Of a DNA stretch of 35,227 nt, positions 3,420 through 35,227 are shown piece by piece; the first letter of the stretch is position 1; the number at the start of each line of letters is the position of its first letter. Made by a program: the position numbers and the translations under genes. The stretch comes from a virus: positions 1-35,227 of IMG/VR virus record IMGVR_UViG_3300046559_000609; one strand, given 5' to 3'. A model generated the notes under the pieces. That model was not told where the DNA came from and made no database searches. It saw only the letters and a list, made by a program, of their open reading frames with translations.

Positions 3420-3424
3420 ACTAG

Positions 3425-3431: not shown

Positions 3432-3435
3432 AAAT

Positions 3436-4242: not shown

Positions 4243-4308
4243 AGGCGATGCACAATGTCAGTCACCAGCCGAATGCAATCTCTAAAAAACGCAATACGGA
4301 GGGATGAT

Positions 4309-4746: not shown

Positions 4747-4910
4747 TGCTGTCAATTGACCGCCAGGCGGAAAAAATCATGCGGCGTGATCACCTTATCC
4801 GCCAACTCTATCTGCTGATCATTGCGCTCGGCCTGATCATCCTGACGCTGTCCATCATGATTTTGGTATTGACGCAGTCGGCAGCGGCCGCAGCAAACAC
4901 CGTCTGGTAA
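4746..4910 (+). CDS. Small single-span membrane protein
   Basis: A 54-residue frame starts at ATG 4746, sharing one base with the preceding stop (TGATG), and ends TAA 4908-4910. It has a basic N-terminus (RQAEKIMRRDHLIRQ) and one long hydrophobic helix (LYLLIIALGLIILTLSIMILVL) followed by a short polar tail. This is N-in, C-out topology by the positive-inside rule. Tight packing in the operon supports it being real. It is not recognisable as a known holin, although its size and topology do not exclude that. Confidence 0.55.
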   Translation: MLSIDRQAEKIMRRDHLIRQLYLLIIALGLIILTLSIMILVLTQSAAAAANTVW

Positions 4911-4916
4911 CGCCAG

Positions 4917-9608: not shown

Positions 9609-9832
9609 TGACGATCCGCATTGTAAATCAGCTCCCTTATCTGATCCGGTTTCTCGCGCACGCACAGCGCATTACTGCCAACACGAATGACCGAGCCGTG
9701 ACCGTCCTGGCATTCGTGCGACTGGGTGCGGATGATAACCACCGCGCTACTTTCTACCCAGATCGGTTTGCCATCCAACGACGTCAGCAGGATAAGGGCG
9801 AGAGCAAGAAAAGCGGGAGGGGCAGCATGCAT
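9605..9832 (-). CDS. Small exported hypothetical protein
   Basis: ATG 9832 with a GGGAGGGG site six bases upstream gives a 75-aa protein. It begins with a hydrophobic signal-like segment (AAPPAFLALALILLTSL) and continues with a strand-rich domain (DGKPIWVES, VVIIRTQS, HECQDGHGSVIRVGSNALCVRE) reminiscent of small FlbD-like beta proteins. Two cysteines could pair in the periplasm. Its position near the endolysin would suit a lysis accessory, but it has no coiled coil like Rz and no lipobox; function unknown. Confidence 0.55.
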   Translation of the reverse strand: MHAAPPAFLALALILLTSLDGKPIWVESSAVVIIRTQSHECQDGHGSVIRVGSNALCVREKPDQIRELIYNADRH

Positions 9833-9858
9833 CAGAAGCCCCTCCCTATCCATATCAG

Positions 9859-10200
9859 CTATGGGCGCTTTGGTGTGGCACTTCCCGGCGGCGGGAAATA
9901 TCCCCATCCATAATCCGGGGACCAGCCCCAACCGCCGTTTGCCGGTGGCGGTTTTGGTTCTGTTGGCGTTGTCGGAATCGCTGGCGGCGGCTGCGGCAGC
10001 GGCAAGCCGGCGTCGATATAATCACCGATGTCACCCCATATCTCGAGCGGAGGACCTCCACCGGGACCACCCGGCATTGGGCCTCCACCGGGCTTGAGCC
10101 CCGTTATCCAAGCGAAGCCGCAAATAGTCGCCGGATAAGGCTTCACACTCTTGTCGCGCGGGTAGACTACGACTTGCATAGAAACTGGAACTTGCGCCAT
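9859..10200 (-). CDS. Proline/glycine-rich small structural or membrane-associated protein
   Basis: This 113-aa product is ordinary at its N-terminus (VPVSMQVVVYPRDKSVKPYPATICGFAWITGLKPG) and low-complexity after it: GGGPMPGGPGGGPP, then a PQPPPAIPTTPTEPKPPP stretch and a Trp/Tyr/Gly tail (GGWGWSPDYGWGYFPPPG). A GGAG ribosome-binding site precedes ATG 10200. Such extended tails are common in virion proteins that act as flexible linkers. It is next to the fibre-type genes. No family is recognised. Confidence 0.6.
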   Translation of the reverse strand: MAQVPVSMQVVVYPRDKSVKPYPATICGFAWITGLKPGGGPMPGGPGGGPPLEIWGDIGDYIDAGLPLPQPPPAIPTTPTEPKPPPANGGWGWSPDYGWGYFPPPGSATPKRP

Positions 10201-10215
10201 TTTGATCTCCTGTTG

Positions 10216-10956
10216 TTATGGGTTACTTGACGCGGCTGTTAGTGATCCGGTCAAGGTAGCGGCCCCGCCAGAACCTTGGTTCGTTGCAAAGGTAGTATTG
10301 TTGCCAAGAAACATAACCGGCGCGGCGGGAAAATTAACCGGATCGACAGGGTTGCCGAGCGCATCGATGAATTTTCTGCGATCCGTTGTGGAAATAGTAG
10401 TACCGGTTAACAGAGATATTCCAGGCGCCAGCCATATATCGGCAAAGTCGCAAATAATCCCGGCACCAGCTCCATCCGCACCGAAAACCAACGATTTGCC
10501 GTTTACTACAAGATTGAACGATGCATCCCCATCGTTGGTGGTGGTCGGGGTTTGCAATACATCATCGAGATACAAAACCAATAATTTGCTTCCGGCGGAT
10601 AGATTGGTTTGCACCGTACCGAGCAGGTGATGCCAGCCGGATGCCAACGTGGCAAACCTCTTTTCAAAAAATGGTGGTGTCGGTCCAAAATCAAATACCA
10701 ATGTCAGGACATTGCTGACCCAGAACGTTGGCTGAAATGCATTGGCTGCATCGTGCGTTACATAAAAATCGCTGTTGTTTATCGAGACCGTCAGATCCTT
10801 GGTCCAAAAACTGAACGAATAAAACGCGTTGTCGGTCGCCGCCAGCGAGGGAATGGTCAGCCAGGCGCTACCATTGAAATGTACTCCCGCGCCAACATAG
10901 CCGGCCGGTGCTGCGGCAGATTGCGCTGGATCCTGTGCCGTTATGCCGGGGATCAT
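10216..10956 (-). CDS. LamG/concanavalin-like tail protein
   Basis: The 246-aa protein shows the LamG-type jelly-roll pattern: GAGVHFNGSAWLTIPSL at the start, YSFSFWTKDLT, a central GWHHLLGTVQ followed by KLLVLYLDDV, and ICDFADIWLAPG near the end. These are typical strands of laminin-G/pentraxin folds used by phages for carbohydrate binding or fibre trimerisation. It is the most promoter-distal of the large tail genes, where receptor-binding proteins are usually encoded. Its start overlaps the stop of the 565-aa protein (ATGA). Adsorption function is inferred. Confidence 0.68.
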   Translation of the reverse strand: MIPGITAQDPAQSAAAPAGYVGAGVHFNGSAWLTIPSLAATDNAFYSFSFWTKDLTVSINNSDFYVTHDAANAFQPTFWVSNVLTLVFDFGPTPPFFEKRFATLASGWHHLLGTVQTNLSAGSKLLVLYLDDVLQTPTTTNDGDASFNLVVNGKSLVFGADGAGAGIICDFADIWLAPGISLLTGTTISTTDRRKFIDALGNPVDPVNFPAAPVMFLGNNTTFATNQGSGGAATLTGSLTAASSNP

Positions 10957-12650
10957 GGCGGCGGTATCCCGAATTTTATATCCGGCGGATCGTTCTCAAG
11001 CTCGCCGCCTGTTGTGCCTAACCAAATCGAGTAATGATAGCGTCTATAGTCCTGGCCACCCGAAGTCACAAACCCTGGTCGTTTCGGCCACGGAATTGTT
11101 CTCGTCTTGTTGGGTTCATCGTCCGGCACCGTGAACGACTCCAGACGAATCTCATAAGTCCCGTTGCCAAGCACCGGCACAATGTTGCCGCCCTCGTTGT
11201 ATGCCAGTACTGCGCTGCAATTGACCGAGGTATTCGGCAAGTCCAGGGTTTCGGCCAGAGATCCGGTATCTGTTGGATCGATACCCTTTTTCCTTAGCGG
11301 GAATTCCTCGTCGGCAAGATAGGGCTCGACCAGTCCGCTGGAAAATACATAGACATGAAACCGGAATCCTCCGATATCAGTGACAGCGGTTTGCTGCGTA
11401 TAGGAGCCGGTCGTCGCCACCGTATAGGTTCCATAATTTATTATTGCCGGCGTTTGCGCTATCGCATTGGCGACCGTGAACATTATTTTCGTCGTGTTGG
11501 CCTGCTCTGATGTAGGCAGTTCTGAACTATCCGGGGTCGGTGCCGCCCTAAACAGAAAGGTTCTTTGATAGCCAATAATCGGAACAGAGGCGGAATCATC
11601 GTAATACTGGATCAACGGCATATGCGGCGGCGGAATCGACATGTCCGGGCAACCGGCCGGTTGATATAAATTAACACCGGCGGCCGCAATTGGCGGCGAC
11701 TCGCAGGGACCGAAGATGTGGATGGCTTCTGTCAGTCCTTGCGGTCCCGGTCCGGCCGTCGTTGCTTCGTCCTCGAGCAGGCCGGATTGAAAAACCAGAG
11801 TGGCGCCCTGTGAATTGTCTTCATCGAAGGTGATGGTATTGTTGCCATTGGTGGAATGCAAAATGGAAGCAATGCCCGGCACGAATGTATCGACTAAACC
11901 AAGCAACTGGCTGCGTATCCAGACTTCATTTGCCGACTGTTCCTGATAGTCGTGCCAAGTCCATTGCACCAAGACGTAGGCGCCACTGGAATAATTGACA
12001 ATGTTCTGAAATGGATCGAGCCGTACCGGGTTTGCTTCAGTGCCTTCGGCATCGCCACCGATAGTCAAGTCTGGATCGTTGTCGCTGGCTTGCCCGGAAA
12101 GATCATCCTCCTGAAATTGTGCGTTGGTGGGATTGACCAGCGTATAGCGCGTTTCCTGGCCGCGGTCAGGAGCATCGATCACCGCCACTTCGTCGATCAA
12201 TTCACTGTCTATCCAGACGGCGTTGTCGTCCGGGTTGCTCGGGTCCTGGAAATATCTGTAGATGTGCGTCCGCGTATGGTTGGAAAAATGCGGCGGCAAC
12301 AGATCGTTGCCGGTCCTATTGTCGAGCGTGAGCTGCGTTTCTTGCCCCCGATCGATGGCATCAAGTGCCTTCCAGGTATCGACGCGCTCGACGAATAGCC
12401 CTTCGCCGGTATCAGCACGCGGCGGATCGTCGGTCGGCACCCCGTTCTCGTCCACCGGAACCGCATGCACCTGATCGACATGCGCCAGCCGCGTCGAATT
12501 CTCGGTATTGTCGAGCGCGTGCTGTGTCTCCTGGTATCGGTCGAGCGGATCGATGAACGATATATTGGTAATAACCGGGACTTTAACCCTGTCGCCGCTC
12601 GGCAATAGGATTGTCTTGCGCGCGGTCGTGCGGGAAAATTCCGCCGGCAT
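10953..12650 (-). CDS. Large tail fibre/tail tip-associated protein with internal repeats
   Basis: The 565-aa product is rich in Asp, Thr, Asn and Pro and lacks long hydrophobic segments, as for an extracellular virion protein. A motif of the form D-R-x-Q-E-T-x-x-x-L-x-N occurs three times at about residues 37-48, 100-111 and 162-173, spaced 62-63 residues, so the N-terminal part consists of three repeated domains. The C-terminal half is beta-rich and ends in proline-rich residues. It lies between a second fibre-like gene and the LamG protein, and it overlaps the former by one base. No named family is recognised; a receptor-binding or fibre role is inferred from place and composition. Confidence 0.6.
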   Translation of the reverse strand: MPAEFSRTTARKTILLPSGDRVKVPVITNISFIDPLDRYQETQHALDNTENSTRLAHVDQVHAVPVDENGVPTDDPPRADTGEGLFVERVDTWKALDAIDRGQETQLTLDNRTGNDLLPPHFSNHTRTHIYRYFQDPSNPDDNAVWIDSELIDEVAVIDAPDRGQETRYTLVNPTNAQFQEDDLSGQASDNDPDLTIGGDAEGTEANPVRLDPFQNIVNYSSGAYVLVQWTWHDYQEQSANEVWIRSQLLGLVDTFVPGIASILHSTNGNNTITFDEDNSQGATLVFQSGLLEDEATTAGPGPQGLTEAIHIFGPCESPPIAAAGVNLYQPAGCPDMSIPPPHMPLIQYYDDSASVPIIGYQRTFLFRAAPTPDSSELPTSEQANTTKIMFTVANAIAQTPAIINYGTYTVATTGSYTQQTAVTDIGGFRFHVYVFSSGLVEPYLADEEFPLRKKGIDPTDTGSLAETLDLPNTSVNCSAVLAYNEGGNIVPVLGNGTYEIRLESFTVPDDEPNKTRTIPWPKRPGFVTSGGQDYRRYHYSIWLGTTGGELENDPPDIKFGIPPP

Positions 12651-13384
12651 CAGGTTGTCTCTGGCGCCAGCAACCCAATGATATCCCAGACCTTGCTATC
12701 GCCAACCTGCTTCAGTGTAAGCGTACCGCCCATGGCTGCCGTGGTAAACTGGAAACCCCTGACCGGATTGATGGCGCCCGGTGTCGGTGCCTCGACGGTC
12801 AGCCCGCCAATGCCCGCGGTGATACCGATGTCGCACTCGTCGCGCAAATGCAGCTCGGTCCAGGGCGGATAATCCACTGCCGGATCGATGCTGACGATGC
12901 AGCCTGTGGAACTGGTGAACCGCATGTAGGTATTGGCATCAATGGCGGTGGTCGTATAAGTCGCATCGCTGATGGTCTGCCCCCACACCGGCTCCTTGGG
13001 CAGGATCAGCGCATAGAAGTTATGGCCAAGGCCATCGTTGTCGGCGGCATCGAATGATGTATGCGAGGTATGCGCGAAGATGACCAGATAGAGCGAACCG
13101 AAATAGGAAACCACGTCGTTGACCGCATAGACGGTCGAGGCCTGCCATTCGCCTTTTGGTATCCATGTGCCTAACGTCGCTGGCGGTATCGTCACCGTCT
13201 CCAGCGTAGAATCGCTCATATGGAATGTGATAATATTGCCGCTGATCGTTATGTCATCGATGCCGCGCCCGGCGGTGATGTTGTCTTCGACCGCAGCGAT
13301 CAGATCGTTCAAATAAGTGAAATTTCCATCCGCCTCGTTCGGCGTCAGGTTCGATCCCTTTACGCTGCGCAGGATGAGCGGCAT
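12650..13384 (-). CDS. Tail fibre-like protein with carbohydrate-binding-type domain
   Basis: The 244-aa protein begins with a motif seen at the N-terminus of many phage fibre proteins (MPLILRSVKGSNLTPNEADGNFTYLNDLI), which probably attaches it to the tail. Around residues 70-110 it has a WIPKGEWQASTVYAVNDVVSYFGSLYLV segment, typical of the small CBM5/12-like carbohydrate-binding fold (W...xxYxxGDxVxxxGxxYxc). A beta-rich region follows. It is immediately upstream of, and overlaps by one base with, the 565-aa protein. Adsorption to a surface polysaccharide is a reasonable inference. Confidence 0.65.
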   Translation of the reverse strand: MPLILRSVKGSNLTPNEADGNFTYLNDLIAAVEDNITAGRGIDDITISGNIITFHMSDSTLETVTIPPATLGTWIPKGEWQASTVYAVNDVVSYFGSLYLVIFAHTSHTSFDAADNDGLGHNFYALILPKEPVWGQTISDATYTTTAIDANTYMRFTSSTGCIVSIDPAVDYPPWTELHLRDECDIGITAGIGGLTVEAPTPGAINPVRGFQFTTAAMGGTLTLKQVGDSKVWDIIGLLAPETT

Positions 13385-20292: not shown

Positions 20293-20627
20293 GCTTCAAA
20301 CAGCAGGATCAGCATGATTTCGCCATCGGCCTCGCCGCCGGGTGACGGCATCGGCTGATAGGTTTTTATCCGCCACGTCTGCCCGTTAAGAGTGATCTGA
20401 CCTTCCGGCAGATCCGCCACCGGGATTCCGATTTGCTCCAACTCCCGCGCCCTGACCCGCGCCACGGGTCGGACGGTTTCGATCTGCGTTCGAGGATCGG
20501 GAATGCTGATGCCGCTGGTTCTATCCACGGCAGTGACGGTTGCGGATTGTCCACCGGCGGATGCAAGGGTGGCCGCGACCCCGAGGGTATTATAGATCGG
20601 GTCATAGTGCGTCTGCCAATCGATCAT
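20289..20627 (-). CDS. Head-tail joining / head closure (stopper) protein
   Basis: This 112-aa product begins IDWQTHYDPIYNTLGVAATL and then forms a small beta-barrel-like sequence (TVTAVDRTSGI, ARVRARELEQIGI, GQITLNGQTWRIKTY, EIMLILLFEA), the pattern of head-tail stopper proteins of the HK97 gp7/SPP1 gp16 type. Its place just upstream of the terminator supports the role. Start and stop are both coupled to neighbours. Confidence 0.7.
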   Translation of the reverse strand: MIDWQTHYDPIYNTLGVAATLASAGGQSATVTAVDRTSGISIPDPRTQIETVRPVARVRARELEQIGIPVADLPEGQITLNGQTWRIKTYQPMPSPGGEADGEIMLILLFEA

Positions 20628-20926
20628 GGTGGGTTCGCCGGATTAGCAACAATCGTGAACTTGATGTCCTCAGCGCCGGGCGGATTGGCGGCACGCAATG
20701 AGGCGAATGCCGCACCCGGTTTTGTGTCGGCAGTATCGAAGTCGGCTTTCCATTTTCCATCGGTTTGCATCAGCATATCGATTGGCTCGTCGGTCGAGGT
20801 GATGCCGTTCGGGTGCGGATAGTTCAGATAGAGCTTGATCGATGATGGCGTCACCGGGTTGCCATCGTCGTCCTTCGGCGTTGACGTGAATACCAAGAGC
20901 TGCCCGCGAAAGACTTTGGTGGTCAT
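20624..20926 (-). CDS. Small Ig-like/beta-rich virion protein
   Basis: ATG 20926 gives a 100-aa protein; it overlaps the stop of the upstream repeat protein (TGATG), which favours it over a GTG nine bases earlier. Strands VFRGQLLVFTSTP, SSIKLYLNYPH, KWKADFDTAD and DIKFTIVANP suggest an immunoglobulin-like domain, often used as decoration in phage virions. It is packed between the repeat protein and the head closure gene. No family is recognised. Confidence 0.5.
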   Translation of the reverse strand: MTTKVFRGQLLVFTSTPKDDDGNPVTPSSIKLYLNYPHPNGITSTDEPIDMLMQTDGKWKADFDTADTKPGAAFASLRAANPPGAEDIKFTIVANPANPP

Positions 20927-23181
20927 CAGTGGCACCCCATTTCCGCATCCAGCATGGCGCTATCGATCTCGACGTTCAGGGCATCGGCGGCCAGGATTGT
21001 ATTTAATTCGCCCGCGGTTATCAGCGTATTGAGTTCATTGGTAGATAGGGCCGTATTCAATCCGCCTTCTGTCATTGTCGCATTCAGATGACAGATCGTA
21101 ATCGGCAGCACATAGCCGTCGGTCGTTTTTACAACAACAGGAGCGACTGCACTAAGAGCAAGCGATCCGGCCGGGACGGTGAGCGTGGTTCCGATACTGC
21201 GCCGGGGTATATTACCAGTGAGCGAGAGCGATGCAGTCGCCGGCCGCAATTGTCCGCCGAGCTGGACGTTCGGTATTTGCCCCGATAGCGCCAACGAGCC
21301 TGCCGCCGCGATATCGCGGTAGTTGCGCAGCAGGATTGGCGTGCCGCCGGACAGCGCCAACACCGCGCTTGCCGGCATGAACGCAACACCAACATCGCGG
21401 CTTGGTGTTTGCCCACTTAAGACTAGCGCCGCTGCCGCCGGCGTTAGCCGTATGTCGGTTTTTGCAACCGGCGCATTGCCGGTCAGTGTTAATGCGCCCG
21501 CAGTCGGTTGCTTTGTTACGACCCCGCCGACACTCGGGGCATTGCCCGTTAACGTCAGGCTGGCAACCGATGGAACGAGGTAATAGCCACCCGTGATGGT
21601 GGATATCGTTCCACTTAGCGTTAGTGCGCCAGCCGCCGCGACCAGCGGCATATTTTGCACGACTGAAGGAGCAACGCCCGTAAGCGCCAGAGCACCCGCC
21701 GCAGGTGCAACCTGGAATGTCGTCTTCAGCGAAGGTGCGAGGGCCGATAATGTGAGGCTTGCGGTGTTCGGATAAAGCGCACCGCTTAGCAACACGTTCG
21801 GCATTTCGCGGGTGAGCGTTAGTGCTCCCGCCGCCGGTACGAAAATGTAACTGAACGTCAGGACCGGTATGTTGCCGGATAGCGTCAGCGCTCCCGCCGC
21901 TGGCGTCTTGAAAAGGCTTTGACTTAGGCTCGGCGCAACGCCGGTTAGTGTCAGTGACCCAACAACAGGTGTCGCAATGACGTTTTGAACGAGCGCCGAA
22001 ACCGTACCGCTCAGCGTCAATGACGCAACGGTCGGAACTTGGCCAATATTCTGAACGCTGGTCGGTGTTTGTCCACTCAGGCTGAGCGAGCCAACCGTCG
22101 GGATTTTGTTGTTATTGACGGCCGCGACCGGCGTCTGGCCGCTCAGCGTTAGCGCACCGACCGTCGGAATGCAGATGACATTGCGAGCGCTGGTCGGGGT
22201 TTGCCCGCTTAACGTCAAAGAGCCGGCGGCAGGAACAAAGATAACGCCGCCGATGACCGCAGTAATGCGCGGTGTTACATCATATCCACCGGCAAGCGGA
22301 CTGCCGCCCGCATAAACCCTGAAGTCGAGGGTGTCATTATTCGCCAGATTGGCGTTGTCGAGAACGACACCGAATTCCACCTCGGTGTACGATAGGCCCG
22401 GTATGTTGATCGCGCCGGTCTCGCCGGTCTCGTCGTATTGGCCGATGAAGAATTTGAATGACGGAGCGGCCGAAGTAAGAGCAAGCGACGCGGCCGCAGG
22501 AGAAAACGCAAGTCCAACCGTCGCCGTAGAAACCGTGCCGGATAAATTCAGACTGGCGGCGGACGGTGTTAGCGAAATACTCTGTTTCAGTGCCGGTATC
22601 GTGCCGCTGAGCGTCAGCGATCCAACGGTCGGGACTATTGCGCTGTCCTGAACCCTGCTCGGCGCAGCCGATGATAACGCAAGCGTGGCAACGGACGGAA
22701 CAATCGAGAATGCTAGGCTTATGCTCGGCGCATTGCCTGATAGCGCGAGAGCAGCAAAGGCCGGTGTCTTAATCGAGCCCTGCAACAATGCCGGAGCGGC
22801 GGACGACAGCGCAAGGCTGGCGACTGCCGGTAATGCGGCGGCAATTAGTTCCGGCGTTACGTCATAGGATATCGCAACGCCGTTGGCATAAATCTGAAAA
22901 TCCAGCCGGTCTCCAACCGCCAGATTTGCGTAATCGAGAACAACACCGAATTCGACCTCAGTATAAGATGGCGCCGGCGCCAGGGTGATGCTGTCGGTCT
23001 CGCCGGTCTCGTCGTATTGCCCGGCGACAAACGTAACTTTCGCCGCCGTATCATCAGATAATGCAAGAGCAGCGCTCGCCGGACTTGCCGGAATATCGAT
23101 CGGGATTAAATTGGGCTGTTGCGCCCAAAACCCTATGCCTCTACCGGGTCCTCCCGCATGCGGGCCAAGAGTCTTTGGCAT
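20926..23181 (-). CDS. Repeat-built virion protein with 22-residue repeats
   Basis: The 751-aa protein is a solenoid of 22-residue units. Block 1 (residues 117-248, six units) and block 2 (316-689, seventeen units) are in exact register without any insertion; a further unit-like segment starts at 33. The unit is about P-x-x-G-x-L-x-L-S-G-x-x-P followed by nine variable residues. Two copies of an 80-residue module beginning YDETGET (56-110 and 249-305) interrupt the blocks. The C-terminus (about 699-748) has five or six 9-residue L-N repeats. Composition is Ala/Ser/Thr/Leu-rich and low in charge. This predicts an elongated beta fibre or tape-like rod; no named family is recognised. It is encoded amid structural genes, so it is probably part of the virion. 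Start ATG 23181 has only a weak ribosome-binding site. Confidence 0.75.
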   Translation of the reverse strand: MPKTLGPHAGGPGRGIGFWAQQPNLIPIDIPASPASAALALSDDTAAKVTFVAGQYDETGETDSITLAPAPSYTEVEFGVVLDYANLAVGDRLDFQIYANGVAISYDVTPELIAAALPAVASLALSSAAPALLQGSIKTPAFAALALSGNAPSISLAFSIVPSVATLALSSAAPSRVQDSAIVPTVGSLTLSGTIPALKQSISLTPSAASLNLSGTVSTATVGLAFSPAAASLALTSAAPSFKFFIGQYDETGETGAINIPGLSYTEVEFGVVLDNANLANNDTLDFRVYAGGSPLAGGYDVTPRITAVIGGVIFVPAAGSLTLSGQTPTSARNVICIPTVGALTLSGQTPVAAVNNNKIPTVGSLSLSGQTPTSVQNIGQVPTVASLTLSGTVSALVQNVIATPVVGSLTLTGVAPSLSQSLFKTPAAGALTLSGNIPVLTFSYIFVPAAGALTLTREMPNVLLSGALYPNTASLTLSALAPSLKTTFQVAPAAGALALTGVAPSVVQNMPLVAAAGALTLSGTISTITGGYYLVPSVASLTLTGNAPSVGGVVTKQPTAGALTLTGNAPVAKTDIRLTPAAAALVLSGQTPSRDVGVAFMPASAVLALSGGTPILLRNYRDIAAAGSLALSGQIPNVQLGGQLRPATASLSLTGNIPRRSIGTTLTVPAGSLALSAVAPVVVKTTDGYVLPITICHLNATMTEGGLNTALSTNELNTLITAGELNTILAADALNVEIDSAMLDAEMGCH
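20938..21087 (-). repeat. 27-bp tandem repeats encoding 9-residue L-N units
   Basis: Leu codons of the L-N pairs (the last is L-D) fall at residues 699, 708, 717, 726, 735 and 744, exactly nine residues apart (units such as LNTLITAGE and LNTILAADA). The nucleotide copies have diverged, so the period is clearer in protein than in DNA. Confidence 0.7.
21115..22236 (-). repeat. Tandem 66-bp repeats, block 2 (17 units of 22 residues)
   Basis: Seventeen consecutive 22-residue units in perfect phase, all of the form P-x-x-(G/A)-x-L-x-L-(S/T)-G. The DNA copies differ a good deal, so this is old or selected protein-level periodicity rather than recent tandem duplication. It is not a CRISPR array: there are no spacers and it lies inside an open frame. 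Confidence 0.85.
22438..22833 (-). repeat. Tandem 66-bp repeats, block 1 (6 units of 22 residues)
   Basis: Six units with the same 22-residue period as block 2, ending in the transition to the second YDETGET module. The unit consensus here is slightly different (LALSSAAP instead of LTLSGQTP). Confidence 0.8.
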
Positions 23182-25951: not shown

Positions 25952-26407
25952 TCAGCCTGCCAAATTGAAGATGCCCGTCGCCGCCGGCGTGATCGTCAAC
26001 GTGTTGTTGATCGTCAAGTTGAACTGCGCCGTTGAAAGCTGGCTATAGCACACCAGTTTGCGGGCAATAGCCGAAGCACCAGAGGCCCAGATCACGGCAA
26101 ACTTGATGTTCGAAATGGTGCCGCCGGTGCCGGTCCACACGGTGGCCGCCGCATTGAACCGCATTTGCCCGCCCGATGCACCGGCCGTCCAAGTCTTCGA
26201 CGCCAATGCCTTGCCCGATGACGAATAGCCGTTCGCCTCGGTCACTTCACCGGTGACGCTCGAAATGATCGACAACGTTGCCGTCGCGGCATTCGATGCC
26301 GATGTGTAGAGCGCGATGCGGAAGTTGCCGCTCCCCAGATTGATCGGGAATGCTTGGCCAAGGTTTCGTTTGAACTTGTTATAAAAGGTCCACGCGCCGA
26401 CTGCCAT
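25952..26407 (-). CDS. Virion-associated hypothetical protein (beta-rich)
   Basis: This 151-aa product has a basic N-terminal helix-like segment (AWTFYNKFKRNLGQAF), then a strand-rich jelly-roll-like body (FRIALYTSASN, LSIISSVTGEV, FNLTINNTLTITP). AGGAG lies upstream of ATG 26407. Similar sequences accompany head and tail genes and may be decoration or fibre subunits. No family is recognised with confidence. Confidence 0.55.
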   Translation of the reverse strand: MAVGAWTFYNKFKRNLGQAFPINLGSGNFRIALYTSASNAATATLSIISSVTGEVTEANGYSSSGKALASKTWTAGASGGQMRFNAAATVWTGTGGTISNIKFAVIWASGASAIARKLVCYSQLSTAQFNLTINNTLTITPAATGIFNLAG

Positions 26408-26408
26408 T

Positions 26409-27293
26409 TTATTTCTCCTCTATTTCCAGTTCCGCGCCAGTGCGGATCATTGTCGCAATGAGTCCAGGACCGTGCACGTTCAACTGAAACAGCTCGCCAC
26501 GTTCCTTAACGAGCTGCAAAAAGTCCTCTGCTTGTTTGGCTTGCCACACCGAACAGACAAAGCGTTGCGCCAGGTCATCTCGCCCCTTCGGCCGACACCA
26601 CACGCTCATGGTCTTTTCGTTATTGTTTTCCGCCTGCTCGTAGGCGTGATGGTCACCGTCGAGCCAGCATGAGTCGAGGCCGAAAATCTCCAGCCGCTGG
26701 AAGCCGAGCATGCGCATCAGCGAGATGGCGCGCATCGAAACGGTCACACCAATGGTGATCGGGTTAATGCGCTTGAAGTAATAGTCCTCCAGCAACTTGA
26801 TCTCGTCATCGCCGGCGCTCAGCGCGTGCCAGATGGTGACAATGCGGTCGCGACACATCTCGAATGTCTTTGGATGGCACTGCGAGGCCAGCAGATAATG
26901 GCAGTCATGCACCGGGGTTTCGACAAACCGTGCATTGAATTCGCGCGCATCCATGACCACCGCGGCATGCACCCGAATATTATGATCAATGCACCATTGA
27001 TAGGCGCCGTTGACGGTGAACACCTTGCCGCCGGTGCGCCAGATCGTCTCGACCAACTCCTTCTCGGTGGTCTTGAGCGACGGCCCGCCCGCCACCAGGA
27101 TGGCCACGTCGGGGTTGGGATCGTAGGGCATCGCCTGCGGCAGACCGCGCCGGATATTCTCCGCGACTTGCGCCAGCAACTGTTTGTCTGTCACGTTCAC
27201 CCTGCAGTCGGGTGAGAACGATATTTCGAGGACTTTCTTCGGATCAAAGGTGACGTGTGTTTGCGCCGCGTCGTGCCTGCCGCGCCCGCTCAT
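26409..27293 (-). CDS. DUF115/MptE-like protein (glycan or pterin-related transferase family)
   Basis: The 294-aa product starts at ATG 27293, overlapping the upstream methyltransferase stop (ATGA). Its VAILVAGGPSL strand-loop and INPITIGVTVSMRAISLMRMLGFQRLEIFGLDSCW region match the DUF115 fold, shared by 6-hydroxymethylpterin pyrophosphokinase MptE-like proteins and motility-associated glycosyltransferases. A DSCWLDGDHHAYEQ stretch supplies acidic and His residues that may hold a metal or nucleotide. In phage genomes such genes usually accompany sugar-transfer genes; here they do too. The role in modifying a virion glycan is inferred. A second, shorter DUF115-like gene lies in the same cassette. 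Confidence 0.68.
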   Translation of the reverse strand: MSGRGRHDAAQTHVTFDPKKVLEISFSPDCRVNVTDKQLLAQVAENIRRGLPQAMPYDPNPDVAILVAGGPSLKTTEKELVETIWRTGGKVFTVNGAYQWCIDHNIRVHAAVVMDAREFNARFVETPVHDCHYLLASQCHPKTFEMCRDRIVTIWHALSAGDDEIKLLEDYYFKRINPITIGVTVSMRAISLMRMLGFQRLEIFGLDSCWLDGDHHAYEQAENNNEKTMSVWCRPKGRDDLAQRFVCSVWQAKQAEDFLQLVKERGELFQLNVHGPGLIATMIRTGAELEIEEK

Positions 27294-27868
27294 CGTTGCA
27301 CCACGTAAAGACCCGTTCCGCACAGGTCGCGGGCTTCAACCAATTCACCGAGCGTCGCGATGCGGTCGCGCCACCATGCGAAATTCTGTACGGTCAGATG
27401 CAGCGGCTTGCCGATGAACTTACCGAATCCGTCGTCATGCAAGGCAATTTGTAGCCATGTCGTCCGGCACGCCTCGAACATGCGGTGAAGCGCCAGCATG
27501 GTATATTCGGGCGGCAGATGTTCCATCACATCGCAGCAAAAGCCATAGTCCCACAGGCTTCTATCTTCCAAAGCCCAATAATCCCATAGCGCTTCCTGCA
27601 TGAAGCGATTGCGGTCGATCTGTGGATCAAGCGCGGCGTCAGTCAGATCGAGCCACGAAACGTCGAAGCCGAGGCTGGCGAACTTCAACCCGGCGCAACC
27701 AGACCCACAACCAATGTCGATAAGGCTCGCCCCGACAACAGGCTCAAGCACCTCGATGAAGCGCTCGACGTTCTCCAGGCCGGGCGAAAATACTTTATAT
27801 TCCGGGTAGCTCCAGATTTCCTCGTACTTGTGTCGTTCCGGCGCCGTGCTGTCGACAATGTGCAACAT
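27290..27868 (-). CDS. Class I SAM-dependent methyltransferase
   Basis: The 192-aa product shows motif I (SLIDIGCGSGCAG, residues 49-60) and the following acidic strand-end VSWLDL (motif II), the hallmarks of the SAM-binding Rossmann fold, and a DVMEHLPP segment (post-I/IV), as in UbiE/COQ5-like or small-molecule/glycan methyltransferases. Substrate is unknown. It is the fourth gene of a five-gene cassette containing a glycosyltransferase, so O-methylation of a sugar is a reasonable guess. AGGAG precedes ATG 27868. Confidence 0.8.
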   Translation of the reverse strand: MLHIVDSTAPERHKYEEIWSYPEYKVFSPGLENVERFIEVLEPVVGASLIDIGCGSGCAGLKFASLGFDVSWLDLTDAALDPQIDRNRFMQEALWDYWALEDRSLWDYGFCCDVMEHLPPEYTMLALHRMFEACRTTWLQIALHDDGFGKFIGKPLHLTVQNFAWWRDRIATLGELVEARDLCGTGLYVVQR

Positions 27869-27871: not shown

Positions 27872-28570
27872 TTAACTTCTCCTGAAAGCAAAGGCCCCGA
27901 TGTCCTCACGCCCCGCACTCATTTCCATGTTGCTGCTGCCGGCCAGCACGAAGCCAAGGCCGCGCATGACAGTGATCAGGCCGTTCCGCGTCCAGTACCA
28001 GCAGTGCTCGTCTTTGCGGTAATGCTTGGAGCGCAGCACATGCTCGGCATCACGGAATATCGGCACCGCCAGGAACAGCCACTGCTGCACATTGGCCAGC
28101 AACGGCCGGAAATCATGCATGTGTTCGAGCACATCCCACATCGAAATGGCTGGCACCGAGTTGGTATAAGGATCGCGCCACAAATCGCGTTGCTTCAGCC
28201 AAGCAATACCTGCCGGATTGATGTCGAAGCCAAGCGTCGAGCGGTAAAAAATCGCATTTCGTCTTTCGATGAACGCCCCACAACCAATGCCAACATCTAC
28301 CAGTTCGCCGCGATGATATTGCGCCACGAACCGCACCCGGCCCGCCATCAGGCTGCGGCCAATCGGACTGTCCGCCTGCTTGGCGAAGCGATCGAAATAC
28401 GCCTGGTCATAAGGCGATGCCGTTACTGGGAAATAGCCGATGCCAAGCTCGGGGAACCATTGCAGATGTTTGCCGGCGATGCTGTCATAAAGCGTCGGTC
28501 GAGGAAACGGCAGAACTGTTGCATCAGGTCGGGGATCGCCTTGTTGCAGTTGTGCCGCATGTTCGTGCAT
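27872..28570 (-). CDS. Second class I SAM-dependent methyltransferase
   Basis: ATG 28570, with an AAGGA ribosome-binding site nine bases upstream, gives 232 residues (a TTG two codons earlier is less likely). An N-terminal part with KHLQWFPELGIGYFPV and SPYDQAYFDRFAKQ leads into motif I LVDVGIGCGAF (about 90-100), LGFDINPAG (post-I) and SMWDVLEHMHDF (motif IV). These are features of a large group of phage-associated methyltransferases that usually sit beside glycosyltransferases. It overlaps the end of the GT9-like gene by 148 bases in another frame, which is unusual, but both frames look like real protein. Confidence 0.75.
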   Translation of the reverse strand: MHEHAAQLQQGDPRPDATVLPFPRPTLYDSIAGKHLQWFPELGIGYFPVTASPYDQAYFDRFAKQADSPIGRSLMAGRVRFVAQYHRGELVDVGIGCGAFIERRNAIFYRSTLGFDINPAGIAWLKQRDLWRDPYTNSVPAISMWDVLEHMHDFRPLLANVQQWLFLAVPIFRDAEHVLRSKHYRKDEHCWYWTRNGLITVMRGLGFVLAGSSNMEMSAGREDIGAFAFRRS

Positions 28571-29406
28571 TGGCAAAAGTCCTTCGGGGTAGCGAAGCCG
28601 ATGCGCGAACAGTCGAGCCGCGGATCGAGCACACGGCCTGGTGCGTTATGCCCGCCCTGGCCGCCGAGCACGACAAAGCAGTGCTTGTTGAGGGCGAGCG
28701 CCGCCGGGATGATGAAACCCATGCCGCCGATAATGATGTCGGACGTCGCCAGTAGCGCCAGCATATCCATCGCCGGCAATTCGCCGTGAATGAACTCGCT
28801 GTCGCCCTTAGGCGGTACTCCAATGAACCACTCGGCGGCATGGGCAACGTCGGCCACGCAAACGATGTGATGCGTCGGCCGTAATGCCTCGACGATATCG
28901 AGAATATATTGCGGTTCGGGATTGCGCGCCGCGTTGAACCATTCACTCCTGACGGTGATCGGGCGAACAAAGGCGATCGGCTTATCTGTCTTGATCGGTG
29001 ATGGTGGCAATGGTGGCAGATCGAAAAGCGCCGGATCCAATTTGATGCCAAACGATTGTTCCATGCCGTTAATAATCGAAAGCCCCATCTGGAATGCGCG
29101 TTGATAACTATTGCGGATAGCCTGCATGCGTGTTGGCCGCGGTGCCCAGATCACGCGACTTCTTGCTACGTTCTTGTTCTGCGTACGCAGCCGCGAATAA
29201 CCGCCGGTTGGCCTGACAAATTTGATCGGCAGATCCGCATATAATTCCGGCCACGAAGTCTCTAGGTAAATTTCCCGCTGCAACGAAAGCGCATGAATGA
29301 ACGCGCGTTGATAGATATTATCGCCCAACCCCTGCATGCCGAGGATGTGCAGCCGCCGGTCAGGCGACGCGAGCGATGGATGCGATCGGATCGGCTGCAG
29401 CAACAT
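28423..29406 (-). CDS. GT9-like (heptosyltransferase-type) glycosyltransferase
   Basis: The 327-aa protein starts from ATG 29406 and carries an ADP-heptose-type N-terminal motif LHILGMQGLGDNIYQRAF (about 19-36), the G-x-G-D-x-x-x-x-x-P family theme with an acidic residue near a Gly-rich loop, and a C-terminal nucleotide-sugar half with PITVRSEW and ATSDIIIGGMGFIIPAALALNKHCFVVLGG (about 238-267). GT9 enzymes move heptose-like sugars. A terminal CQCTNMRHNCNKA region contains four cysteines, as in some phage members. It shares the final 148 bases with the next methyltransferase. Its start overlaps the upstream gene by 47 bases. Confidence 0.68.
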   Translation of the reverse strand: MLLQPIRSHPSLASPDRRLHILGMQGLGDNIYQRAFIHALSLQREIYLETSWPELYADLPIKFVRPTGGYSRLRTQNKNVARSRVIWAPRPTRMQAIRNSYQRAFQMGLSIINGMEQSFGIKLDPALFDLPPLPPSPIKTDKPIAFVRPITVRSEWFNAARNPEPQYILDIVEALRPTHHIVCVADVAHAAEWFIGVPPKGDSEFIHGELPAMDMLALLATSDIIIGGMGFIIPAALALNKHCFVVLGGQGGHNAPGRVLDPRLDCSRIGFATPKDFCQCTNMRHNCNKAIPDLMQQFCRFLDRRFMTASPANICNGSPSLASAISQ

Positions 29407-29998
29407 GGTCTTCCAATCGCACGATCGGCCAAAGCGTCAGCGCGCTTCCCGGCGAGGCGTTGACGCATTCGATATTCATCTGCGTCAGGTCTTCGGCAGC
29501 CTTCGGCAGATCGGTCTGTTGCCGCCGCCAGCAATCTGCCGTCGGTTTCCATGGGTGCGGCGGATGATGATGGATCTTGCCGTCCGGCCCGGCCTTCTGG
29601 TCGATGCCGAGCAGGACAATCTTTGCCACGCCCAGATGCACCGCCAGATTCATCGCCGCGGTGAGCGTCGTATTTTTCACCATCAAGGTATGCGTGTCGG
29701 TGGCCAGGCCGGGCGTGGTCTTGCGGATCATCGTCAGGATCTGCGGCGGGCCGGTTGCCGAAGTCGAGCAACTGATGATCTTGCCGCCAAAGTTCATCAA
29801 TGCCTTGCGATGATGCAGGAACCAACGCATGTCGGCAAACACCACATACTGCGCCCATGGCACCGCAACATATGAGCTGTTGATGGCGATGACGTTCCTG
29901 TCCTTGAGCAACTCAAGATTCTGCTCAAGCAGTGAAGTGCCGCCGCCGATAATATAGCCAACATCCCCTTTCCATAACGGCTCGACGCGCCAGCTCAA
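29360..29998 (-). CDS. Short DUF115-like protein
   Basis: The 212-aa product is called with a TTG start at 29998, coupled to the connector stop (TTGA); there is no ATG near the domain start. GYIIGGGTSLLEQ at residues 14-26 parallels the VAGGPSL loop of the other DUF115 protein, and VIAINSSYVAVPWAQYVVFADMRWF (35-59) matches the next strand-helix of that family. The C-terminus is shortened compared with the 294-aa paralogue. It is the first gene of the sugar/methyl cassette. The close similarity of layout suggests duplication or two partners of one enzyme complex. Confidence 0.6.
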   Translation of the reverse strand: MSWRVEPLWKGDVGYIIGGGTSLLEQNLELLKDRNVIAINSSYVAVPWAQYVVFADMRWFLHHRKALMNFGGKIISCSTSATGPPQILTMIRKTTPGLATDTHTLMVKNTTLTAAMNLAVHLGVAKIVLLGIDQKAGPDGKIHHHPPHPWKPTADCWRRQQTDLPKAAEDLTQMNIECVNASPGSALTLWPIVRLEDHVAAADPIASIARVA

Positions 29999-30675
29999 AC
30001 GTTGAGCCTCGCGTAATTCTGGATCATTTCAGTGACGTTTGGCGGCAGAATTGAACTGACCGGAGCAGCAGCACCCTTGCCGGCGGACGCATAGCGGAAG
30101 CGATTGTAATAATCCCCATATGTGACGGTCGTATCGCCATGCGTCGTCGAGCGGATGGACGGATCGCGGTTGCCGCTGAAATGCTGCCACCGCAAAGTCT
30201 CGATACACGCCTGTGACAGCAATACCGGCGCATCGTCGGGCAAATCATAGCCGCCACTGTATTGCGCAATCACTTCGCCCGACCAATGACTATTGACCGG
30301 CGAATAGGCCCACGACCACATGCCAGGAACCAACCAAAGTAGACCGGCCTCCTTGTCGAGCTCGTAGCCGGTAGGGTCGGCTATGCTGCCGCCGACCGTG
30401 ATCGAGTTAAGTTCGCTGACCGGAAATTGGCGCAGATTAATCCCGCGTGTCGGATCATAAAACGACAGGCGAAAGCTTTCCGAGACCGTCAGCATAGCGA
30501 AATAGCGGTCGCACAATTCACCGATCATCTTGGAAATCGCCGTGATCTTCTCAGCCATGATCGCATCGTCGGCGGTATTACCGGGGATGCCGAGCGCGAC
30601 ATTAACCGCATCCACCGTGGTCAGGTCATAGACCGGCGATGTCGGTTCGAGGATGGTGAAAAGTGATTTCCTCAT
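29995..30675 (-). CDS. Head-tail connector protein (gp6-like)
   Basis: The 226-aa protein matches the gp6-like connector family of HK97-type phages, which sits under the portal: an N-terminal helical segment with DAVNVALGIPGNTADDAIMAEKITAISKMIGELCDRYF, strands SFRLSFYDPTRGINLRQFPVSELNSITV (typical of the family) and a C-terminal helix SQACIETLRWQHFSGNRDPSIRSTTHGDTTVTYGD. It follows the collagen-like gene and overlaps it by four bases. Confidence 0.82.
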   Translation of the reverse strand: MRKSLFTILEPTSPVYDLTTVDAVNVALGIPGNTADDAIMAEKITAISKMIGELCDRYFAMLTVSESFRLSFYDPTRGINLRQFPVSELNSITVGGSIADPTGYELDKEAGLLWLVPGMWSWAYSPVNSHWSGEVIAQYSGGYDLPDDAPVLLSQACIETLRWQHFSGNRDPSIRSTTHGDTTVTYGDYYNRFRYASAGKGAAAPVSSILPPNVTEMIQNYARLNV

Positions 30676-31229
30676 GGCTCATATTTACCCGTCGGCCCCT
30701 GTGGACCGGGCGGACCTCGTTCGCCGTCCTTGCCGTTGCTGCCCTTCCTGACAAACAATTGCCATTGCTTGGAGTCGCCCGGCTTGTCTTTTGCGCCCTC
30801 TATCATGCAGACCCAACCATTGCCGCCGCAGGAAACCGTGTCGTCAAGATGGAAATCATCATCATGTTTCCATGGTCCGCGATGGCGCCCGCGCGAGGGC
30901 CCTGCACCGTCCTTGCCGTCTTGGCCCGGCGGACCTGGCGGTCCCGGCTCGCCCTTTTCGCCATGAATGGACAGGCCGTCCCTGCCATCTTTGCCATCCT
31001 TGCCGGGGATGCCGACTTCGCCACGCAAGCCGATATCGCCGCGATCGCCTTTTTCGCCGCGCGGACCCTGCAGTCCGTTTTCTCCGCGGTCGCCTTTTTC
31101 CGGCATACGCGCCTCGAGCGCAGCTATGCGCTGTTCCTGTTGAATGACGATCGCTCTATAAGGCGCAATGTGTTCCTTGATGATCTCGGCTATTTCTCGC
31201 CCGAGCATATCCTCAAGCTGCAGTTGCAT
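30672..31229 (-). CDS. Collagen-like virion protein
   Basis: The 185-aa protein has a coiled-coil-like N-terminus (residues 1-45, EDMLGREIAEIIKEH then IVIQQEQRIAALEARM) that would trimerise, followed by two runs of Gly-X-Y triplets (about 46-110 and 163-181, with KGDRGENGLQGPRGEKGD, PGKDGKDGRDG and GEPGPPGPPGQDG). The linker between them (111-162) is globular, with two cysteines. Collagen-like domains in phages form trimeric fibres or capsid/tail spikes. It overlaps the portal end by 17 bases and the connector start by four. Host-surface contact or decoration is inferred. No hydroxylase is seen. Confidence 0.85.
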   Translation of the reverse strand: MQLQLEDMLGREIAEIIKEHIAPYRAIVIQQEQRIAALEARMPEKGDRGENGLQGPRGEKGDRGDIGLRGEVGIPGKDGKDGRDGLSIHGEKGEPGPPGPPGQDGKDGAGPSRGRHRGPWKHDDDFHLDDTVSCGGNGWVCMIEGAKDKPGDSKQWQLFVRKGSNGKDGERGPPGPQGPTGKYEP

Positions 31230-32568: not shown

Positions 32569-32759
32569 CCTTTCTCGGCCTCGAGTTTGCGATGCCGGTA
32601 GCGCTGTTTTTTGCGCACCGGCACCACATCATCACTCTCCGCAGCCAGCTTGGCCGCGGACAACACCATGCGATGCGCGTCTGAAAGCGGCTCGAATATT
32701 TGGCCTGCCGCAAGCTTGCGGTGGTTATAATCGAACGACTTCAATGCGCGCATCATCAT
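32565..32759 (-). CDS. Small head-operon protein of unknown function
   Basis: The start is one of three tandem ATGs; the first, at 32759, overlaps the capsid stop (ATGA), giving 64 residues. The sequence ALKSFDYNHRKLAAGQIFEPLSDAHRMVLSAAKLA resembles small proteins often encoded near capsid or portal genes (pattern L-x-x-F-x-Y, L-x-x-G-x-x-F-E), and it ends in a strongly basic tail (VRKKQRYRHRKLEAEK). It may be an assembly factor or internal head protein; function unknown. Confidence 0.6.
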   Translation of the reverse strand: MMMRALKSFDYNHRKLAAGQIFEPLSDAHRMVLSAAKLAAESDDVVPVRKKQRYRHRKLEAEKG

Positions 32760-34693
32760 CCGGTCACCGCCCCACCGTAGGCAGCGTTTGTCATATAAAA
32801 CACGCCTTTGTCTCGACCACGCATCCATGTGATGTAACGCTCGGCACGCACGAACACCAAATTGTTCTGGAATGCCGAGACCAGGTGGTAGTTGCCGGCC
32901 GCAGGTGCCGAATCCAGTTCAACCGATGCCTCGCGTGACACATCGATTTGCAATCCGCCCTCGTCCGCCACAAACACCGACGGTGGATGGATTGCGGTGA
33001 CTTGCCCGGCCGGTGAGTTATTCGAGGTCAACACCGTGATGCCGAGGATATTGCCGCCATTGCCATTGACATTCGGGAACGCCACCACGCCCAAAGTTGT
33101 CAGCATGGTGCCGATCGAAGTCGCCAGCACCGGCTGCATGATCAGCGTCAGGTTATCGGTCGGGATATTGTACTCCTGGAAGTGGTACAGGATCTGCCGG
33201 ATATCATGGATCACCGCGGTGATATCGGTACCGGAAGCTGCATCGCTGTCGGCACCATTGGTGATCGATGCCGGCGACACGTTGGTCACAGCGGTAACCG
33301 ATGGCTTGATGAACTGCTCGTCGAGGAATTTGGCGATGCCCTTGGCGAGGTTATCACGCACCAGCATTTCAACCGACGGGCTTGAGAAGCGCGCCAGTTC
33401 GTCGGTGACGCCCATGATGCACGCCGTCTTGGCAAACGTCAGCGTGACGGTGTCGAACGTGCCTGCAGCCACTGGCTTGCTGGCGCCTTCCCCGACCCAC
33501 TGGGCCGTGATGACGCTATTTTCGCGCGGGATGCGCGAGTTAAATGGCACCCGCGTCAACCCTGGAATGCGGCCGAGATAGGTCTGCGGCACCAGAAATT
33601 CGAGAAATTCACTGGCGAGGTTCTGCGCGTAGACCAAGTTGCCGGCCCATGTTGCCGAGGTAACCGTGCCGGTCGCCACTGCTGCCTTGATATCCATTTC
33701 GATCTGTGGCCACTGCCCGCAGTATTGTCGCGCCACGGCAATAACATCGCGATGATAAACATCGGCGTGTAACTGGCAGGCGAGCCGCTTGATCAGGCCG
33801 AGGCCTGGCGGCAGCGTCGGTGCCTTCACCTGGATCGACTGCGAATGCATCTCGATGCCATCGCTGTTCGATACCGGCTTTGCCGTGCTTATCAATTCCT
33901 TTTCGATCAGCCGGCAGTCGGTGAGCTCGCGATCGACCGACTTGATAACGGCCGAGTGTTCGTCAAACGCATTCTGTTCCGCCTCGTCCTTGGTGCGGTC
34001 TTCTTCAACGATCTTGCTTTGGATTGCGTCACGCGCGGCCACTTCGGCGGCGCGTTTTGCCTCGAGGTCTTTCATCCTCTCGGCGTTGGTCTTCGTGGCC
34101 ATAGTCGTGGCCTCCAATTTGATGGAACGGGATGCCGCGACAGCGACGGATTTGCCGGAATGGCCTGACGAGGCCGGGGTCACTTCTTGCGTATCGCCGG
34201 ACGCGGCGCGCAATCCGTGATAAATGGCGCGAATGGTATGGATGGAAGCATCAACATTGGCGGGAATCGTAACGGCCGATAATTCGAGAATTTCATACTC
34301 GTCGTATTGAATCCCACCGCCCTTAAGCATCGTGACCTTGTCGGCGGCAGCCTGGAACCCGATTGACACCGCACGCACCAATCCCAATTTGATTGATTGC
34401 CACGCCTCGTCGAGCCGGTCCTTTAATTTGCCAGGCTCTACCGATTTGGCGATTTTCGCCCTGAACGGAATCCCGTCGTCACGCGCCTCGGCCCACACCA
34501 CATGTCCAATTGGTTCGCCTGAACGATGCTGCCATAGCATCGGCATCGGCAGGCTGAACTTGGCGCCGCGCGGCTTGACGATATCGCCGACGCGATCGAC
34601 CGTTGGCGTCGAGGCAACGCCCTCGATGATGCGCTGATCTTCATCAAACGATTTGATGTCGAGCACCGCGTAGGCGCGGTTGAGTTTTGACAT
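32756..34693 (-). CDS. Fused prohead protease and HK97-fold major capsid protein
   Basis: From ATG 34693 (AAGGAAA upstream) this is 645 residues with two units in one chain. The first 170 residues are an HK97 S78/U35-type prohead protease with catalytic candidates H56 (LWQHRSGEPIG), S110 (LVRAVSIGF) and E137 (ILELSAV). A charged coiled-coil linker (about 200-270), which would be the scaffolding delta-domain, leads into a HK97-fold capsid domain: TATWAGNLVYAQNLASEFLEFLV, then EGASKPVAAGTFDTVTLTFAKTACIMGVTDEL, and the long C-terminal strands. By family knowledge the protease removes the linker and itself after shell assembly. Most relatives have separate genes; this fusion is known in only some phages. 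Confidence 0.88.
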   Translation of the reverse strand: MSKLNRAYAVLDIKSFDEDQRIIEGVASTPTVDRVGDIVKPRGAKFSLPMPMLWQHRSGEPIGHVVWAEARDDGIPFRAKIAKSVEPGKLKDRLDEAWQSIKLGLVRAVSIGFQAAADKVTMLKGGGIQYDEYEILELSAVTIPANVDASIHTIRAIYHGLRAASGDTQEVTPASSGHSGKSVAVAASRSIKLEATTMATKTNAERMKDLEAKRAAEVAARDAIQSKIVEEDRTKDEAEQNAFDEHSAVIKSVDRELTDCRLIEKELISTAKPVSNSDGIEMHSQSIQVKAPTLPPGLGLIKRLACQLHADVYHRDVIAVARQYCGQWPQIEMDIKAAVATGTVTSATWAGNLVYAQNLASEFLEFLVPQTYLGRIPGLTRVPFNSRIPRENSVITAQWVGEGASKPVAAGTFDTVTLTFAKTACIMGVTDELARFSSPSVEMLVRDNLAKGIAKFLDEQFIKPSVTAVTNVSPASITNGADSDAASGTDITAVIHDIRQILYHFQEYNIPTDNLTLIMQPVLATSIGTMLTTLGVVAFPNVNGNGGNILGITVLTSNNSPAGQVTAIHPPSVFVADEGGLQIDVSREASVELDSAPAAGNYHLVSAFQNNLVFVRAERYITWMRGRDKGVFYMTNAAYGGAVTG

Positions 34694-34709
34694 GGGTTTT
34701 CCTTTGAGT

Positions 34710-35227
34710 TCAGCCGACAAAGAACATCTGAAAGGCGGGCGCCTCTGTCGGCCTGTCGCTCATGACCATGGCCGCATCGAACAGCGCCATGGCGGCGTCG
34801 ATCTTGGCATCGCCGGCGTTCTGTTTGGTCATGCGTATAGCCGTGGCGGTCGGCTCTATTTTGCAATTGCCCACACACCACGACATCAAATCGGATTTGC
34901 TATGCCACAGCGTGCCGTTGGCCAATTTGCGTTCGGTGCCCTTGATCGCATTCATCATGCGATAGCCTTGCGGCGCGCCGATCAGGTTCTTGTCGGCAAC
35001 GGAGACTCCGATGCGTCCGAGCGCGTCCACGACTTCACCGAGGCCAGCAGGGTCAACAGCGACAGCCGCCAAAAGATTTCTTCGCTTGATGTCGGAAATA
35101 ATCTCAATGATGGCGGTGATGTCATCCAGTTCGTCTTTGACAATTGTCAATTCCCCACTAGTTTGGAAATCCTGCAGCGTTGCCGCGATGGTTTGCCTTC
35201 GCTGCAGGACGCTCTCGTGACACCAAG
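34710..35227 (-). CDS. terL: Large terminase subunit, C-terminal part (partial)
   Basis: The frame is open from the right edge to the TGA at 34710-34712 and encodes the nuclease half of the large terminase. Visible features: LAAVAVDPAGLGEVVDAL with an RNase H-like Asp, LIGAPQGYRMMNAIKGTERKLANGTLWHSKSDL and the terminal QNAGDAKIDAAMALFDAAMVM with further acidic residues, which fits the TerL packaging nuclease. It is the upstream-most gene of the late operon in the window. The ATPase part lies beyond the edge. Confidence 0.85.
   Translation of the reverse strand, partial: WCHESVLQRRQTIAATLQDFQTSGELTIVKDELDDITAIIEIISDIKRRNLLAAVAVDPAGLGEVVDALGRIGVSVADKNLIGAPQGYRMMNAIKGTERKLANGTLWHSKSDLMSWCVGNCKIEPTATAIRMTKQNAGDAKIDAAMALFDAAMVMSDRPTEAPAFQMFFVG

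Follow-up and report, generated by a model that had tools for sequence, protein, structure and literature searches.

A widespread phage repeat with two-residue length steps, in a putative virion-surface stalk of a soil siphophage

We argue that P0001, a 751-aa repeat protein of a soil siphophage, is a virion-surface stalk that projects two small, perhaps glycan-binding, domains. We give this reading a probability of roughly 60%. The repeat is not a lone curiosity: it is a widespread phage repeat family that is so far unclassified in the libraries. P0001 itself is phage-typical, conserved and real, and its kind (a phage fibre or minor tail stalk) is already known. Two things raise the case above routine. 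Unit length is quantised in steps of two residues, and the repeat is linked to a glyco-cassette.

The gene and its surroundings

The window is the whole 35.2-kb virus record that was analysed, and every feature located below by window coordinates is on its minus strand. That strand carries a siphophage structural operon in the order protease-capsid fusion, portal, head-tail adaptor, sugar-modification island, P0001, head closure, major tail protein, pre-tape and tape-measure. The P0001 gene (20926..23181, ATG start) has the glycan-modification island on one side and the head-closure gene on the other. It is upstream of the head closure, major tail and tape-measure genes and apart from the tail-tip genes that come after the tape measure. 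Directly downstream lies the gene of a small protein of 103 aa (20624..20935) that is Ig-like by eye and found no match in a family search. A gene in the same position is also downstream of the repeat gene in other phages, where it forms a neighbour cluster.

Three other genes of the window deserve mention. The capsid protein is fused to the prohead protease (32756-34720, Peptidase_S78 + Phage_capsid). A collagen-like GxxG protein is encoded between the portal and head-tail adaptor genes (30672-31229). A tail-region protein (12650-13384) has a CBM_5_12 carbohydrate-binding module (PF02839, over cut-off).

Architecture of the repeat protein

The original prediction described a 22-residue register of six and then seventeen units, and this is borne out. 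Self-match at a lag of 22 is 27% for P0001 as a whole and rises to 38.5% within the second block, while the largest self-match at any lag in shuffled P0001 (n=300) is 13%. The units start at residues 118, 140, 162, 184, 206 and 228 and then at 317 + 22n (n = 0-16), which gives five intervals of 22, one of 89 and sixteen of 22. The span first reported, 21115-22833, is that of residues 117-689. The count of at least 23 units is right for the two blocks, but an extra unit at residues 34-53 had been missed, so there are 24.

The protein begins with a conserved segment (GPHAGG..GRGIGFWAQQPNLIPI, residues 1-30, 23092..23181) that is invariant or nearly so in orthologs. The lone first unit (23023..23082) has the same register as the unit at residue 228 and leads into an inserted domain (GQYDETGET...SYTEVEFGVVLD...DFQIYA...YDVTP, residues 54-113, 22843..23022). 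Then come the first array (residues 118-246, 22444..22830), a second copy of the domain (residues 247-312, 22246..22443) and the second array (residues 317-690, 21112..22233). The two copies are 64% identical. This domain of about 60 residues (GQYDETGET...YTEVEFGVVLD...DFxVYA...YDVTP) therefore splits the array after unit 1 and after unit 7; searches of PDB and of families gave no match to it. The C terminus (residues 691-751, 20929..21111) is made of 9-residue mini-repeats, LNTxLxxxE, and 0/5000 shuffles are as good at period 9. Neither the inserted domains nor this C-terminal array had been noticed before. Among comparable C-terminal tails of relatives, 21 of 55 have a significant period of 8-12 residues (p<=0.01). 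The significant periods are all 9, 10 or 11, in sequences that are mostly unrelated. The mini-repeat array of P0001 and its relatives is perhaps a docking element.

The unit consensus is P1-[AT]-[AV]-[GA]4-S-L6-T-L8-[ST]-G10-x-x-P13-x-[LV]15-...-[LK]21-[VT]22. To say that P-x-x-G-x-L-x-L-S-G occurs each time, as was claimed, is an overstatement. Only L6 and L8 are invariant over the 23 units (23/23); P1 and P13 are kept in 20/23, G10 in 17/23 and S9 in 16/23, and position 4 is G or A.

The units differ from each other, with a mean identity of 44% in DNA and 36% in protein. Their synonymous codons are mixed, Leu6 being written with six codons and Leu8 with five. Compared with an 87% identical ortholog, L002, dN is 0.070 and dS is 0.534 (dN/dS about 0.13). 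The DNA copies have thus diverged, as first noted, and mixed synonymous codons and this ratio are why we agree that the periodicity is kept by selection on the protein. The comparison shows that P0001 is under purifying selection.

A repeat family of phages

No entry in Pfam, PHROG, NCBIfam or PDB covers the repeat protein. Against PHROG there is no match at E<=1, minor-tail PHROGs included. Some Pfam families do match the repeats (Poly_export at E 7e-4, and others), but mostly under cut-off, and the families are unrelated, so we reject them as composition artefacts. To find relatives instead, we scanned all viral contigs with a degenerate DNA pattern that describes two units in succession. 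At 22-residue spacing the pattern finds 96 stretches in viral contigs and none in dinucleotide shuffles of the window. A bacterial and archaeal genome collection gave 3 matches, of which one is an out-of-frame chance match and two are phage-type proteins, and a repeat search in plasmids gave nothing. After clustering, 110 distinct relatives are left from the viral contigs, and they carry from 2 to about 38 units.

Among annotated phages the repeat occurs in mycobacteriophages and Gordonia phages, mostly in a protein named as a minor tail protein. By tblastn P0001 reaches actinobacteriophage minor tail proteins at E 9e-8 to 1e-4, with a matching consensus of PxxGxLxLxGxxP. The mycobacterial repeat-bearing minor tail proteins match PHROG minor tail families, and the Yoshi and KashFlow proteins match phrog_553. 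A literature search for a phage 22-residue repeat found none. Thus the repeat, judged by eye to be no known family, is indeed absent from Pfam, PHROG and NCBIfam, but it does occur in annotated minor tail proteins of mycobacteriophages and Gordonia phages.

These minor tail proteins (PHROG_553/2106/13352; Yoshi gp26, KashFlow gp32, prophiGD102-1 gp102 and Gordonia Gibbles gp37) have PxxAxLTITGGxP repeats with the same unit consensus as P0001. Theirs are virion-type genes too, and a PHROG_644 gene adjoins the three mycobacterial ones that were checked. There are also differences. The minor tail proteins have about 5-12 units and a more variable length, where P0001 has 24 units of 22. They carry a C-terminal globular or glycine-rich domain, where P0001 has inserted domains instead. 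Their genes come after the tape measure, near the lysins, whereas the P0001 gene is upstream of it. P0001 does not score against the PHROG_553/2106/13352 profiles.

Unit length and the predicted fold

Stretches in viral contigs number 22 at a spacing of 20 aa, 9 at 21, 96 at 22, 2 at 23 and 59 at 24. Even spacings outnumber odd ones 177 to 11, and still 81 to 11 when 22 is left out (p 2.5e-14, with contigs that are not all independent). Units in relatives are of 20, 22, 24 or 26 residues and rarely odd, though odd-length units exist. The parity is weaker when counted per protein, as among proteins found only by the 22-pattern 17 have another even length and 11 an odd one. The original prediction held that unit length should not vary freely in relatives. 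Length does vary, but mostly by steps of two.

Three observations point to where the extra residues go. Whatever the length class, Phi15 keeps its distance from one unit end and Phi(n-1) its distance from the other. The hydropathy of unit positions 14-n is mirror-symmetric, with r of 0.97, 0.95, 0.86 and 0.81 for n = 20, 22, 24 and 26. Over the same lengths the centre of the turn-forming G/N/D shifts from 16.7 to 18.0, 19.4 and 20.8. It follows that each lengthening step puts roughly one residue to either side of a central turn. We infer from the sequences that this is how a beta-hairpin would behave, unlike a free loop. Units of the P0001 type have a core of strand type, P1xxG4xL6xL8xG10xxP13, followed by a second beta segment with Phi15 and Phi(n-1) as its anchors.

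AF2 was given the first six units of the second array with 25 in-register sequences. An alignment of overlapping repeat windows was dropped because its register slipped. The six-unit model (pLDDT 77.8, pTM 0.68) has two strands, at positions 3-9 and 14-19, in almost all units, and hydrophobics alternate along the unit. The five models spread from pLDDT 78 to 61, and the full-length protein with its natural ortholog alignment reaches only pLDDT 43 and pTM 0.39. The check first suggested was a prediction of three units; run on six, it yields a repeating beta model that the full-length prediction does not match in confidence. The original prediction of a long beta helix keeps its beta strands, two per unit, but its solenoid needs the in-register alignment. 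It must be added that AF2 produces unrealistic solenoids for perfect repeats (PMC11795689). We accept on the models that the repeats are beta, with two or more strands per unit. We do not choose between a solenoid and a trimeric fibre because the natural-alignment model is weak and AF2 is biased toward solenoids.

A homotrimeric fibre shaft is a serious candidate, at somewhat less than even odds. Each unit would be a strand-turn-hairpin, and three chains would be wound together as in a triple beta-spiral or triple beta-helix. Trimers are common among phage fibres, and PDB 9d93, which we take to be mycobacteriophage Bxb1, lists three chains for the wing brush and three for the wing base. The conserved G/P turns that separate the short strands, the hairpin-like symmetry and the even length steps all fit such a shaft. 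In virion fibres the known triple beta-spiral and triple beta-helix shafts of phages are likewise built of short repeating strands and G/P turns, but their unit consensus and length are unlike those of P0001. The repeat profile found nothing in PDB, and no fibre shaft there matches it in sequence.

The single-chain beta-solenoid, with two strands per 22-residue turn as in curli or pectate lyase, seems to us rather doubtful. The six-unit model speaks for it. VIA-align places that model on PL3 pectate lyase, a CARP domain, SufD and bactofilin with Z of about 8-10 and rmsd of 2.4-3.6 A over 96-131 residues. Curli CsgA and parallel beta-helix proteins have a unit of about 22 residues with two strands, as the model does, and CsgA (8enq) aligns to it at Z 11.8 with rmsd 9.2. 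However, their consensus differs, there is no sequence match, and closure of a solenoid in P0001 is only predicted. Foldseek of the model against PDB has no match at E<=0.001, and its best matches in a viral structure library are uncharacterised Caudovirales proteins. The spread of the models, the natural-alignment score and the AF2 bias also count against a solenoid. Moreover, arrays that mix units of 20, 22 and 24, and a turn that is central in segment 14-n, are better explained by hairpin arms than by a second strand that runs on unbroken.

The sugar-modification cassette

The cassette near the repeat gene has three members. Beside the 151-aa PHROG_644 protein (25952..26407) stands a putative glycosyltransferase of 304 aa (26409..27323) that is MptE-like and Maf/PseD-like. 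It passes the PF01973 cut-off (E 3e-15, 56.8 bits against 34.6). We assume a link of PF01973 to Maf; beside this there is a weak match to NCBIfam PseD in the central domain only, which is far under cut-off (E 0.003, 16.1 bits against 670). The third member is a SAM methyltransferase (27290..27868), which moves with the other two. The rest of the island (27872..29998) has another methyltransferase (27872-28576), a GT9-like gene (28423-29406; phrog_6804, the GT call being by eye) and a DUF115-like gene (29360-29998). The last has a partial PF01973 match below cut-off and is kept where the full MptE-like gene is absent.

Over the 110 loci the repeat gene most often has a PHROG_644-like gene as a neighbour, at 43 loci and on its own strand each time. 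A methyltransferase, in many cases joined to an MptE-like domain, comes second with 21 loci. PF01973 is present in 25/49 repeat-bearing viral records but in 0/50 random viral contigs (Fisher 3e-10), and PHROG_644 in 40/49 against 4/50 (Fisher 2e-14). The random contigs, of 15 kb or more, were drawn by a 16-base pattern, and none had a repeat match. A tblastn search of named phages with the PHROG_644 and MptE-like proteins of the window found nothing. In one relative, L033, a 647-aa protein (3370-5313, plus strand) is encoded upstream of a repeat gene and has dual-specificity-phosphatase-like, methyltransferase and MptE-like domains.

Two relatives are informative about the history of the cassette. 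L198, whose capsid is 87% and major tail protein 93% identical to those of the window, has neither P0001 nor any of the three cassette genes. The rest of the island is still there: the second methyltransferase, the GT9-like gene and the DUF115-like gene. Three genes separate P0001 from the cassette in the window, and two of them (156 and 184 aa) are clearly kept in L198. In L200 the capsid is 67% and the major tail protein 31% identical, yet the methyltransferase, MptE-like and PHROG_644 proteins are 85, 92 and 95% identical and the repeat protein is 37% identical. Sequence comparison thus indicates that the cassette (25952-27868) travels between phages and accompanies the repeat protein. It also points to recent horizontal transfer as one unit, because the cassette is so similar in L200 and absent in the otherwise closer L198. 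Where the window has the repeat protein and two upstream neighbours, L198 has an unrelated 255-aa protein of no known family (9769-10536, plus strand), likely a swap of surface proteins.

A transferase and a methyltransferase stand among virion genes in the window. In some mycobacteriophages the capsid and tail-tube proteins are glycosylated by transferases that the phage itself encodes (PMC12363180). Maf enzymes are reported to transfer nonulosonic acids to Ser/Thr of flagellin (PMC11339370). The head genes of Corndog include those of an O-methyltransferase and of glycosyltransferases (PMC4351075). This island, gp35-38, resembles that of the window in its place, but the window transferase is MptE/Maf-like and is coupled to PHROG_644 and the repeat protein. 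The transferase and methyltransferase of the cassette probably put sugar on a protein of the virion surface, either PHROG_644 or P0001.

One can imagine that the repeat rod is itself the acceptor of both enzymes and coats the virion with a shield of sugar. We consider this unlikely, although it is compatible with a stalk. Repeat and transferase co-occur and are co-absent, proteins in transferase-bearing records have more units (median 20 v 11, p 0.0008), and Corndog, Che8 and Myrna are precedents for virion glycosylation. On the other hand, Ser/Thr in repeat proteins with the transferase is no higher, either overall or at the outward positions 5, 7 and 9. PHROG_644 is also the more tightly linked in L200 and may be the acceptor. 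Still more speculative is the full scheme of a new fibre-repeat class. Here unit length would change by two residues because each unit bears a beta-hairpin arm, and the rod would act with PHROG_644 and be sugar-coated by the phage-borne enzymes, the Maf-type transferase and the methyltransferase. Phages of widely different hosts would share all this as a portable 'glyco-fibre' cassette.

The case for a stalk

As a stalk, P0001 would work as follows. Each unit would lengthen a beta-rich rod by a set amount. This rod would space the two inserted domains and hold them off the particle to catch cell-surface sugars. The C-terminal 9-residue array, the conserved N terminus or both would dock it on the neck or tail. 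That the inserted domains bind glycans is our guess, made by eye and from context.

The actinophage cousins support this role: the units of Yoshi gp25 (about 650-705) are flanked by a wing-base-like part and a wing-brush-like part. The 'tail wing base gp30' of 9d93 matches residues 5-304, and its 'tail wing brush gp33' matches 721-932. In L134 a brush domain follows the repeat array. The solved chains have no match to the repeats themselves. The near-confinement of the repeat to phage is a further argument, and so are the place of the gene in the structural operon, the two strands per modelled unit, the mirror symmetry with its even length steps, and the association with PF01973 and PHROG_644. 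Whether or not they bear the repeat, proteins at the tail end of Omega's operon (gp35-40, 43 and 44) are virion proteins by mass spectrometry (PMC3706429), and the surface of a phage can be densely set with glycan-binding domains, as in Douge (PMC13033339). Several points weigh against a stalk. P0001 has no minor-tail PHROG match and its gene is away from the tail-tip genes, so head, neck and tail positions are all possible. The full-length AF2 model is poor, and the inserted domain matches nothing in PDB or among families.

A disordered sticky linker, periodic in look only, is very improbable. The protein is rich in Pro, Ser/Thr and Gly, and the full-length AF2 confidence is low. However, the array has only 5% charged residues, the GRAVY of P0001 is +0.54, and disorder would not be expected to give invariant Leu6 and Leu8, mirror-symmetric hydrophobics and quantised lengths.

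The idea of a ruler-like rod, with unit number setting tail length or another dimension, draws on the exact register and on a length of 751-752 aa conserved in L001-L005, but we reject it as scarcely credible since P0001 is dispensable in L198, which keeps a 636-aa tape-measure protein, since unit number does not covary with tape-measure length (among orthologs that share the count of 23, tape measures are 680 and about 637 aa long), and since unit number varies, L006 being two units shorter and the relatives ranging as given above.

Implications

A repeat family absent from the public family libraries is now defined. Its even unit lengths and mirror symmetry are a rule that any structure must explain, and it has links to the PHROG_644 family, which carries the label 'unknown function', and to a cassette of sugar-modifying genes. 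If our reading is true, many unannotated phage genes would have a likely role, and phages would have a modular rod of tunable length. There would also be a testable route to phage surface glycosylation beyond the mycobacteriophages.
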